38,076 nt of DNA from Bacillota bacterium (GTDB lineage: Bacteria; Bacillota; Limnochordia; Darwinibacteriales; DTU012). Location: positions 1 through 38,076 of the forward strand of contig JAAYNP010000103.1 of assembly GCA_012520795.1 (NCBI GenBank), read 5' to 3'. The notes below the pieces were generated by a model that ran no database searches, was not told the DNA's origin, and saw only the letters and a list, made by a program, of their open reading frames with translations. Position numbers and translations under genes: made by a program. Shown piece after piece: positions 16,160-19,826 of this stretch (position 1 is the first letter of the stretch; every line of letters begins with the position of its first letter).

Positions 16160-18328
16160 CTAAAATTTCCGTTCCACACCGACCCTGAAGCTGTTGTCGC
16201 GCCCGATATCATCGAAAATCAGGCTGATCAGCCAGCTGGGGTTCCAGGCATAGTTGCCTTGTAACGACAGAGTCGGCTCGCCGGTGGTCAATTTCTTAAG
16301 CTCCCCGGTCAAAACCCATTTGTCACCGATCCGGGCATCAAGGCCAACGCCCAAGCTGGTGTCAATCATCCCATAGCGCTGGCGCAGGACCCCGGTTTGC
16401 CGCCCGTACTGCAGCTGCAAATGATTCCCTTCCGTACCCAGAATATCTTCGATGCCAACCAGGATGAATGAATTCGTGTTCTGGGGCCAAAATTCGAAGC
16501 TGACACCGGTCATCGGGCGCCGATCTAGGATGTTGTAATGGGCACTCCAGGTGGAACGAATGTCCACCTTTTCACCTATCGTTTTCACTTTTTCAATATC
16601 CTCGTTCAGCTTTTGGATGCTGACCATTGTATCTTCCAGTTGGGCAAAGACGCCGCTTTCTGAGTCAAAACTCTCGGAAACCTTGGCCAACAGCTGAGCC
16701 AGTTCGTCAGTCCCAGCTTCGATATTCGCCAAAGAGGCCCGCAAATCGGCGGCAGTCTCGCCTTCCGCAGTTACGTCACCAATAAAGCGGTTTATCTTGG
16801 CTACACTATCCTCAACACCCGTAACTATGCTTTGAATGTCCTTCAGTGCTATAAGAGTCTCGCGGCTGAAACTCTGAACGTCAACATTGATTTGAGTCAC
16901 CATCTGGTTTATCTCTGCCGTCACAGCGTGGACATTGGCGGAAATTCCTTCCAGATCCGCCATGATGGCAGTTACACTGTTGGGATCCACGGCGGTGCTG
17001 ACCGCCCGCAGATTCTCAACAACTTCTTCGACACCGGCTAAGAGCGCATCCAACTGCAGTTCAGCGATGGTTGTGGAGAACTGATGCAAGTCCTCTACCA
17101 CTCCCGCAAACATGGCCTCAAAATCCAGGCCGGCCAGTTCATTGGTAAACGCAGCCAACTGCACCGCCATCTCCTGCCAGCCTATATCTTTCAGTTCAGC
17201 GGCCACCACCTGCAGATCAGCGACAACCTGATCTACCGGCAGTTCCGCCAAAGTCACTGACAAATCATAAACGTTGGCTGCAATAGCCTCAACCGGCACT
17301 GAAGCCAGGCTCCTGGACACAGTCTGGAGATCCGCCGCAATCTCGTTGAGGGGAAATGTGCTTAACTGGGTTGTGAAGGCTGCAATCTCAGCACTGCGCT
17401 CCTCAAGCTCCAAAGCCTTGATTTGATCTGTAACGAGCAGAATCTCGTCGATTAACGGTTGGATTTCCACAGCCGCCAGCATGGATGTAAACTGGCGCAC
17501 ATCCGACTCAATCGCAGCCAGGTCAAGGCCGGCCAATTGCTGGGTAATTCGCTGTACATCAGCGGCAAATTCCTGCAGAGGCAGGGCATTCAACTCAGCG
17601 GCAACCTGATTGATCTCGTTGATCGGATCAACCAGGTTGATGCTGGCCAACTGCTGGGAAAAAGCCTGTATGTCTCCAAAAGTGGATCTCAGGTCCAGTT
17701 CAGGCATTTGCCGAGAAAACTCTGCCAGGTCATCCACCACAACTTGAACACTCCCGGCAACTTCATTCACCTGATCGACGGCGGTCTTCAGGCTGGATAC
17801 CGTATCCCTCAAAAGTTCACCGGTTGCCGCCAGGTTTTCCTGCAGCTGTTCAGAACCGGCCACCTCCGTAATTCTGGCAATGACTTGGTTTAGGCTCTGC
17901 AGCCCTTTCTCCACTTCCTGGATCATATTGTCTATGCTTACAGGACTTACGCCGCTGATTGTCACAGTCAAATCCATGGGTTCCTGTGCCTGGCCAGGCT
18001 GGATCTCAATATATTTGTCCCCAAGAATACCTGAAGCAGCAAGTATAAAGCGCGAATCAGACGGGATCAGCAGTTCCCGGTCCAGCCTGGCTTTGACCAG
18101 GACCTGGCTGCCTGCCAATTGTACCGCTGTCACAGTGCCGACATTGACACCGGCATAGCGTACCGGTGCCCCTTCAACCAATCCGCCAACATTTTCGAAG
18201 CTGAGGACCAGTTCTATACCTTCGGTGCGGCGCAAATCGATTCTCCCTACAGCCATGGCCATGGCTGCAAACAATATGATACTTATCAGCACAGTTACAC
18301 CCGCTTTTGCTTCTGGTGACAGCTGCAT
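16160..18328 (-). CDS. mlaD: long MCE (MlaD-like) protein with 19-residue repeats and a barrel-like C-terminal domain
   Basis: 722 residues, the lipid-binding subunit of an Mla-type ABC system. Residues 9-27 are a single membrane anchor. The MCE domain (about 37-115) has FENVGGLVEGAPVRYAGV and GILGDKYIEI. A helical region follows, holding twelve repeats of 19 residues (212-443), then more helix to about 590. Residues 591-722 change character: alternating polar/hydrophobic strands separated by turns, ending FRVGVERKF, the pattern of an outer-membrane barrel with terminal Phe. Diderm Firmicutes such as Veillonella are reported to have MlaD fused to a C-terminal barrel as a trans-envelope bridge; this fits. 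Its start shares one base with the mlaF stop (TAATG). Confidence 0.88.
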   Translation of the reverse strand: MQLSPEAKAGVTVLISIILFAAMAMAVGRIDLRRTEGIELVLSFENVGGLVEGAPVRYAGVNVGTVTAVQLAGSQVLVKARLDRELLIPSDSRFILAASGILGDKYIEIQPGQAQEPMDLTVTISGVSPVSIDNMIQEVEKGLQSLNQVIARITEVAGSEQLQENLAATGELLRDTVSSLKTAVDQVNEVAGSVQVVVDDLAEFSRQMPELDLRSTFGDIQAFSQQLASINLVDPINEINQVAAELNALPLQEFAADVQRITQQLAGLDLAAIESDVRQFTSMLAAVEIQPLIDEILLVTDQIKALELEERSAEIAAFTTQLSTFPLNEIAADLQTVSRSLASVPVEAIAANVYDLSVTLAELPVDQVVADLQVVAAELKDIGWQEMAVQLAAFTNELAGLDFEAMFAGVVEDLHQFSTTIAELQLDALLAGVEEVVENLRAVSTAVDPNSVTAIMADLEGISANVHAVTAEINQMVTQINVDVQSFSRETLIALKDIQSIVTGVEDSVAKINRFIGDVTAEGETAADLRASLANIEAGTDELAQLLAKVSESFDSESGVFAQLEDTMVSIQKLNEDIEKVKTIGEKVDIRSTWSAHYNILDRRPMTGVSFEFWPQNTNSFILVGIEDILGTEGNHLQLQYGRQTGVLRQRYGMIDTSLGVGLDARIGDKWVLTGELKKLTTGEPTLSLQGNYAWNPSWLISLIFDDIGRDNSFRVGVERKF
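17000..17695 (-). repeat. twelve tandem 19-residue protein repeats inside MlaD
   Basis: Residues 212-443 of the MCE protein divide into twelve units, eleven of exactly 19 residues and one (402-424) of 23. The approximate pattern is [P/D/E]-hydrophobic-x-x-h-x-x-[D/E]-[V/I/L]-x-x-h-x-x-x-L-x-x-hydrophobic. Examples are PLQEFAADVQRITQQLAGL, PVEAIAANVYDLSVTLAEL and PVDQVVADLQVVAAELKDI. Units are diverged at residue level, so the array is old rather than a recent DNA expansion. Confidence 0.8.
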
Positions 18329-19068
18329 TAATATCCCCCCTGCTCACCTTGACCGCCGGTAAGAAAACTCTTCACCAACGGTATTTGCGCTTGCTCCATT
18401 TCGGCCGCCGTACCCACAAAAATTATTTCACCCTCATGCAGTAGAGCCACGCGGTCAGCGATTTTGAAAGCTCCTTCCAAATCATGGGTGACAACCACGG
18501 AAGTCACTTGCAGACGCTCGTTGAGATCTCTTATTAAACTCAAGATCGTATTGCTGGTCATGGGATCTAGCCCCGAAGTAGGCTCGTCATACAATATTGC
18601 CTGCGGCTGCATGGCGATCGCCCGGGCCAGGCCAACACGCTTTTTCATACCGCCGCTTAGCTCGGCAGGCATTTTGCTTTCCACGTCAGCCAACCTAACC
18701 AGGGCAAGGGCTTCTTTTACTTTCTGAGCCAGCTCACTCTTGCTGATTCGATCATTGCGCCAGGCAAAACCCACGTTTTCAGCAACGGTGAGAGAATCAA
18801 ACAATGCCGAAGATTGAAAAACCATCCCAACTTTTCTGCGGATCGGCCCCAGTTCTTTTTCTGTAGCTTTGCTGATATCGGTGCCGTCCACCAAAATCAG
18901 GCCTGAATCCGGCCTGATCAGCCCGTTTAATAAACGGAGGATTGTACTCTTTCCGGCTCCGCTCAAGCCCATGATTACGAAGATCTCGCCATGATTGATT
19001 GACAAAGTGATCTGCTTGAGAATTTGGTTTCCATCGGCGCTGAAACAAACATCCTTTAGCACGAACAT
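18328..19068 (-). CDS. mlaF: Mla-type ABC transporter ATP-binding protein
   Basis: The ATPase of the phospholipid-transport complex, on the cytoplasmic face. 246 residues from the ATG at 19068, which has GGAGG seven bases upstream; the longer frame to 19215 lies inside mlaE and is not used. Walker A is GLSGAGKST, the signature LSGGMKKRVGLARAIA, Walker B ILYDEPTSGLDP, and the switch histidine lies in VVVTHDLEG. The KKRV following the signature is typical of MlaF-like rather than general importers. It starts 20 bases after mlaE ends. Confidence 0.94.
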   Translation of the reverse strand: MFVLKDVCFSADGNQILKQITLSINHGEIFVIMGLSGAGKSTILRLLNGLIRPDSGLILVDGTDISKATEKELGPIRRKVGMVFQSSALFDSLTVAENVGFAWRNDRISKSELAQKVKEALALVRLADVESKMPAELSGGMKKRVGLARAIAMQPQAILYDEPTSGLDPMTSNTILSLIRDLNERLQVTSVVVTHDLEGAFKIADRVALLHEGEIIFVGTAAEMEQAQIPLVKSFLTGGQGEQGGY

Positions 19069-19088: not shown

Positions 19089-19826
19089 CTACCACATCAA
19101 TGCTGAGAGAAAGTAGTTGGAGATGAAGATGCCTATCATACTGCTGACTACTGCTGCGATTGTGGCTGTGCCCACACCCTGGGCCCCTTTGGTTGTGTTC
19201 AGCCCATGATAGCAACCGGCAATCGCCACGATGATGCCAAACACGGCAGCTTTAACCAAACTGCACAAAATATCGTAAATATTGATTGCCCTAATCGATG
19301 ACTGGTAGAATACCATCGGAATAATCCCCACTTGATTGGTAGCCACCACATAACCACCGGTCATTCCAATCAGATGGGCAAAAACAGTCAAGGCAGGCAC
19401 CATGATCATGCAGGCAATCACCCGGGGGACAACCAAATACTGCACCGGGCTGGTGGCCATGGCTTTCAACGCATCAATTTGCTCCGTAACATTCATTGCA
19501 CCCAGTTCGGCGGCTATTGCCGATCCTGCTCTCCCGGCAACCACAACGCCGGTCAAAACCGCTCCCAGCTCCCTGATGACGGCAAGCCCCAACAGTTGGC
19601 CGATAAAAGATTCGGCGCCAAACCGTTTCATTTCCTGGGCAACTTGCAGTGAGAACACCATGCCGGTAAAGCCGTTGATGATCAGCACCAAAGGAATTGA
19701 CCTGACACCAAGGGCCACCATTTGCTGAGTGGTGTTCTTGAATTCCACATCGCCCCGGACAATATGATAGAATGCTTCCATGATCAAACGGGCAATTTGG
19801 CCTACATTCTCAAAAAATCTGATCAT
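19089..19826 (-). CDS. mlaE: Mla-type ABC transporter permease
   Basis: The inner-membrane permease of the Mla complex. 245 residues, with an N-terminal amphipathic helix and about five membrane helices. Family landmarks are FTGMVFSLQVAQEMKRFGAE, the conserved ELGAVLTGVVVAGRAGSAIAAELG spread over two segments, EQIDALKAMATSPVQYLVVPRV, and a glycine-rich last third. ATG behind GAGGAG. It is first in the mlaE-mlaF-mlaD operon. The lipid cargo and direction cannot be read from sequence. Confidence 0.94.
   Translation of the reverse strand: MIRFFENVGQIARLIMEAFYHIVRGDVEFKNTTQQMVALGVRSIPLVLIINGFTGMVFSLQVAQEMKRFGAESFIGQLLGLAVIRELGAVLTGVVVAGRAGSAIAAELGAMNVTEQIDALKAMATSPVQYLVVPRVIACMIMVPALTVFAHLIGMTGGYVVATNQVGIIPMVFYQSSIRAINIYDILCSLVKAAVFGIIVAIAGCYHGLNTTKGAQGVGTATIAAVVSSMIGIFISNYFLSALMW

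Follow-up and report, generated by a model that had tools for sequence, protein, structure and literature searches.

The window, i.e. the whole stretch of 38,076 nucleotides that was analysed, codes for MlaE, MlaF and an MlaD of 722 aa, a set best explained as a minimal system for lipid transport that lacks both MlaA and MlaC. The helical region of this MlaD contains an array of thirteen consecutive units repeated with a period of 19 residues (residues 193-443; positions 17000..17752, minus strand). The best explanation that we have for the array is a series of kinked helical needle modules placed between the MCE ring and an outer-membrane barrel, a reading whose chances we put a shade above even. 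MlaD would thus probably bridge both membranes of an uncultured diderm Firmicute.

The mlaD gene (16160..18328, minus strand) was recognized from its open reading frame, the Pfam family MlaD (PF02470) and its relatives, and its product comprises a TM helix, an MCE domain, a helical region and a predicted C-terminal beta-barrel. PF02470 covers residues 37-112 (17993..18220, minus strand) with E=1.2e-21 and 77.1 bits, against a curated cut-off of 25.1; the rest of the protein gives no convincing Pfam match. Two other helical segments, both on the minus strand, flank the array: residues 132-192 (17753..17935), with a heptad-like pattern of ~3.4 residues per turn, and residues 444-590 (16559..16999), with ~3.5 residues per turn and common to the short MlaDs of other Bacillota. 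The C-terminal region (residues 591-722; 16163..16558, minus strand), which ends in F, is homologous to the end of these short MlaDs. By analogy with the barrel of the long MlaD type, known from the V. parvula study (PMC10665443), it may form an outer-membrane beta-barrel.

Directly upstream of mlaD and on the same (minus) strand lie mlaF, an ABC ATPase gene (18328..19068; Pfam ABC_tran, with NCBIfam MlaF among the matches), the end of which overlaps the start of mlaD, and mlaE, a permease gene (19089..19826; Pfam MlaE with E=4.7e-76, TIGR00056 above its cut-off). The window genome (2.37 Mb in 154 contigs, 99% complete) contains one MlaD match, and no second copy of the array was found in it. 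Neither PF05494 nor PF04333 gave a match for MlaA or MlaC in this 99% complete genome, the controls being positive. No match to the array was obtained among plasmids and phages. As to close relatives, genome contigs gave a single one, of the same genus, and viral contigs gave none.

The preliminary description had divided residues 212-443 (17695-17000) into twelve units, eleven of 19 residues and one of 23. This division is exact: the succession is ten units of 19 residues, then the one of 23, then a last one of 19. A thirteenth unit, residues 193-211 (SVQVVVDDLAEFSRQMPEL; 17696..17752, minus strand), has to be added in register before residue 212; it was found with the PWM chain, and its spacing to the next unit is 19 in the window and in most relatives. 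The array as a whole is defined by the period, the PWM chain and conservation. The period itself was assayed by BLOSUM62 autocorrelation with shuffles on residues 213-447, giving z=9.4 at lag 19, z=8.8 at lag 38 and z=8.1 at lag 57, while in the shuffles the maximum z, taken over all lags, has a 99.9% quantile of 4.17. The strict 19-residue period first read by eye thus stands far above the null. With hydrophobicity as the sole measure, z is 7.4 at lag 19, and the signal is limited to about residues 191-400. The hydrophobic period is 3.80 residues per turn in the array versus 3.4-3.5 in the flanks, and 19 is not a multiple of the heptad. A chance or low-complexity origin of the array was ruled out by the shuffles, the fixed spacing and the invariant positions.

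To describe one unit we used 168 units from 13 genomes. Positions 2, 9, 12, 16 and 19 are occupied by I, L, M, F, V, W or Y in 96-100% of the units, and position 5 in 82%. The fixed hydrophobic positions initially noticed are therefore real, with the correction that the commonest residues at position 1 are P, D, E, G and N. D or E is present at position 8 in 126/168 units and at position 4 in 78/168, and proline occurs only at positions 1 (53 units), 4 (13), 5 (7) and 17 (7). The hydrophobic spacing inside a unit is a plain heptad one, 3-4-3-4-3, there is only one narrow hydrophobic stripe per helix, and no odd-even alternation was seen in the similarity of the units. The residues preferred at position 1, an E at position 4, and hydrophobic residues at position 5 and at the preceding position 19 are what is expected of a helix start, i.e. 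a capping box and a hydrophobic staple. Each unit thus has the appearance of a single short helix headed by a cap or a proline.

One helix per unit is also supported by prediction. The AlphaFold model of residues 307-443, built on an alignment of four rows of which two were earlier units aligned in register, has a mean pLDDT of 76.7 and shows seven helices, one for each unit; the 23-residue unit (residues 402-424; 17057..17125, minus strand) is modelled as a single longer helix (model residues 97-117). Its pTM is 0.40, so the mutual arrangement of the helices is not fixed by the model. The full-length model, built on two rows, is too poor for folds (mean pLDDT 42.5) and does not model the C-terminal barrel with confidence; its helix breaks are at the same places as in the seven-unit model. 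Searching the PDB by sequence gave matches to the MCE part and to designed and generic coiled coils. Entry 13hr_I, the solved structure of a 312-aa "Mce/MlaD domain-containing protein" whose sequence is that of eight chains of the entry, was matched by profile over the MCE domain and, weakly, over part of the helical region.

The array recurs in 13 genomes of the order, that of the window included, in MlaDs of 698-766 aa whose identity to the window protein is 32-75% in the relatives. In nine of the 13 the spacing is the same (10 times 19, 23, 19), across 31-75% identity of the repeat region. Sixteen residues of the array are invariant in all 13, solely at unit positions 12 (5), 16 (5), 1 (4) and 9 (2). 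Orthologous units share 7.7/19 residues, different units 4.2/19; the array is thus old and is not being homogenised, and ongoing turnover was ruled out on this basis. Disparities nevertheless appear in a few relatives. Two have gained whole units: G006 has +19 residues, i.e. one unit, which is most like its neighbour (9/19 identical, for an array mean of 4.5), and G009 has +38, i.e. two. A third, G008, lacks four residues in one unit, and in G015 the array departs from regularity, some of its spacings being of 22 and 26 residues, longer than 19 by one or two helical turns. The 23-residue unit, longer than the others by about one helical turn, is found at the same place, with its +4, in every member of the order that was parsed. 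This constant place indicates that it is probably functional and not a slip. Within the order, most members of one family (f3: G010, G013, G017-G035) have Omp85 and no MlaD match; G015 alone keeps MlaD.

The sample consisted of 398 genomes of the same, single phylum. The other MlaDs in it are of ~411-482 aa and match the window protein only at residues 1 to ~230 and from ~451 on, i.e. their ends correspond to residues 451-722, and none of these sampled short MlaDs has a leading period of 19 residues. Since both ends of the protein occur in other Bacillota and the array between them does not, the latter appears to have expanded an MlaD of the known long "transenvelope" type, and is specific to the order as far as sampled. 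Many of the short MlaDs (L041-L058) show a 34-residue period with z of 4-6 in their helical region. A genome from another family of the class, G045 (L037:1522-3873, minus strand), codes for an MlaD of 784 aa which has no leading 19-residue period; it contains several copies of a different motif, like DG-TA--L---L, and elongation therefore seems to have happened differently.

On the simplest reading, the array corresponds to the stacked helical "needle" of mycobacterial Mce transporters, in a form of unusual length and regularity. A long-type MlaD would start at the inner membrane with its helix and the MCE ring, and end in the outer membrane with a C-terminal beta-barrel. Each unit would form a helix of ~15-17 residues with its cap or proline at position 1, consecutive helices being linked through a kink or a turn of very few residues. 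Module n of all six chains of the MCE hexamer would together make one six-helix bundle, the hydrophobic stripe (positions 2, 5, 9, 12, 16 and 19) would line a lipid conduit, and the tube between ring and barrel would be a stack of 13 such bundles. The array would have been gained by whole modules before the order diversified and would now be near-fixed, with +1 and +2 in two lineages. The hexamer, tube, conduit and barrel of the window MlaD are thus putative elements of the model. The initial proposal of a helical repeat forming a stacked tunnel wall keeps its place as the best-supported reading, which does not extend to its use as a ruler.

Besides a period of 19 residues where actinobacterial Mce needles have 21, two results weigh against needle modules. 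With its low pTM, the seven-unit monomer has as best structural matches extended antiparallel hairpins (chemoreceptor 3g6b, Vipp1, Smc arms), and no Mce1 chain is among its Foldseek matches. Moreover, at the rise of Mce1 (~150 Å for 8 modules of ~21 residues, i.e. ~0.9 Å per residue) residues 132-590 would extend over ~41 nm, and over 69 nm as a continuous helix, by simple arithmetic, versus 24.2 nm for the periplasm of V. parvula, the one measured diderm-Firmicute value (PMC10665443). Either the periplasm is very wide, or the array does not go straight across. A kinked helix that doubles back in each chain as an antiparallel hairpin or bundle would agree with the hairpin matches and would remove this length paradox; the array would then thicken, brace or give slack without proportional lengthening, in line with a TamB that is not longer in the order. 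But AlphaFold frequently folds back isolated helical segments when it models them as monomers, the match scores are within the range of common arrangements, and the odd single-unit gain of G006 is awkward for a hairpin of paired units. We hold such folding back to be rather unlikely.

The hydrophobic period of 3.80 residues per turn, distinct from that of the flanks, could also denote a continuous right-handed coiled coil with 19 residues in five turns, a long-period relative of the 11/3 and 15/4 coiled coils. This value, however, follows from any 19-residue unit with five turns, and a continuous coil fits poorly with the heptad spacing inside the unit, with the proline at position 1 in 53/168 units and with the helix breaks of both models, which makes it very improbable. 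Still less credence, indeed hardly any, can be given to a compact single-chain alpha-solenoid (HEAT-like, with one or two helices per repeat) acting as a periplasmic docking platform. In several relatives the signal at lag 38 matches that at lag 19 in strength, and FD15, a designed flat helical repeat, comes top for the poor full-length model, all matches of which are insignificant. Yet the units show neither odd-even alternation nor more than a single narrow stripe per helix, and no natural solenoid family is among the matches listed for the seven-unit model, the second structural comparison being limited to Foldseek's own matches.

It had been suggested at the outset that the repeat number could be a ruler for the width of the periplasm, i.e. 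that the number of modules sets or matches the distance between the inner and outer membranes; the periplasm of the order would then be exceptionally wide, roughly double that of Veillonella. In two lineages the array differs in length by exact multiples of the unit, the unit number is near-constant in the rest of the order, which fits a constrained length, and G045 reaches a similar length by its different motif. Against this, the unit number varies by +1 and +2 inside one order, a straight tube would far exceed the periplasm of V. parvula, and TamB, another presumed envelope-spanning protein, is shorter in the order (~1040-1170 aa; 1041, ~1036 and 1167 residues in three members) than in the Bacillota with short MlaDs (~1440-1590 aa; 1443-1594 residues). 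The ruler thus has the rank of a possibility and not of a result, and we consider it unlikely. The comparison of repeat number with envelope spacing among homologues, also proposed initially, gave an array kept in the 13 genomes and, with the same spacing in nine of them, little variation to correlate with the envelope.

Other features bear on the envelope of these bacteria. Omp85 is present in 35 of the 36 genomes of the order, which is thus very probably diderm, and in cultivated Limnochordia the outer membrane is visible in thin sections (PMC11456536). No value of the periplasm width was found for the lineage in the literature, including the available sections of that paper. TamB was not detected in the other members of the order searched, among them the window genome. 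In the relative G001 (L089:1372-8200) the tamB gene lies between a gene for a ~600-aa protein and Omp85; in the window genome (L088:4978-8764) these two neighbours are adjacent, without TamB between them. In Veillonella, tamB mutations suppress mla defects (PMC10665443), which makes an Mla system without TamB notable.

The mismatch between the length of the helical region and the one measured periplasm of a diderm Firmicute calls for a resolution, in whichever direction. A distinct 19-residue needle geometry, in which a homohexamer of 13-15 modules would form a very long conduit with whole-module length steps matched to an unusually wide periplasm, has in our opinion a small chance of being right. 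If it were, each joint would have two residues fewer than in Mce proteins and the lumen stripe would advance unlike that of the left-handed Mce1 needle. Modules of this regularity, all coded by a single gene and varying in nature by +1 and +2, offer a clean way to study how MCE conduits are built, and to ask whether the length of a conduit follows, sets or ignores the width of the periplasm.

Two MCE proteins of E. coli, PqiB and LetB, reach across the periplasm; LetB does so by stacked MCE rings, PqiB in part by a tunnel of alpha-helices. Their length comes largely from several MCE domains, in contrast to the window MlaD, which has one MCE domain and many helical modules. PqiB is also treated in the study of Grasekamp et al. 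(2023; PMC10665443), which reports Mla in a few Limnochordia and, for the long MlaD of V. parvula (419 aa), shows separable inner- and outer-membrane parts and presents an AlphaFold-modelled hexameric tunnel. The window protein is probably of this type: it has the TM helix, the MCE domain, the helical region and the MlaEFD operon without MlaA and MlaC, and its C-terminal region is homologous to the short MlaDs of other Bacillota. It differs by its length, 722 aa versus 419, with ~250 extra residues that correspond to the thirteen regular modules, of which no mention was found in the available sections of that study.

The closest likeness to the array itself is with Mce1 of Mycobacterium smegmatis (PDB 8fed/8fee/8fef), whose subunits also carry short helical repeats separated by kinks. 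Its cryo-EM structure shows eight such repeats per subunit, repeat n of the six chains forming a six-helix bundle and the bundles stacking into a hydrophobic tunnel (PMC9882608). Mce1 is a heterohexamer with 8 modules per chain, versus 13 modules and a single MlaD gene in the window genome. The NCBIfam Mce family TIGR00996 aligns to residues 12-265 of the window MlaD, i.e. into the array, below its cut-off, and the core pattern D-L-x-x-F-T-x-x-L of the latter is similar to L-D-x-F-T-x-x-L in a Rhodococcus Mce protein. The six Mce proteins of a Rhodococcus plasmid have a pooled period of 21 (z 9.2), with no peak at 19. The initial remark that the 19-residue period was not known from described MCE proteins consequently stands for its value, 19 versus 21 in these actinobacterial needles; helical modules as such were known, with the eight of each Mce1 subunit. 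With a period of 19 and not 21, the packing cannot be identical to that of the actinobacterial Mce needles. The array thus resembles the Mce needle in kind and differs from it in period; we do not class it as one, and it may work like one.
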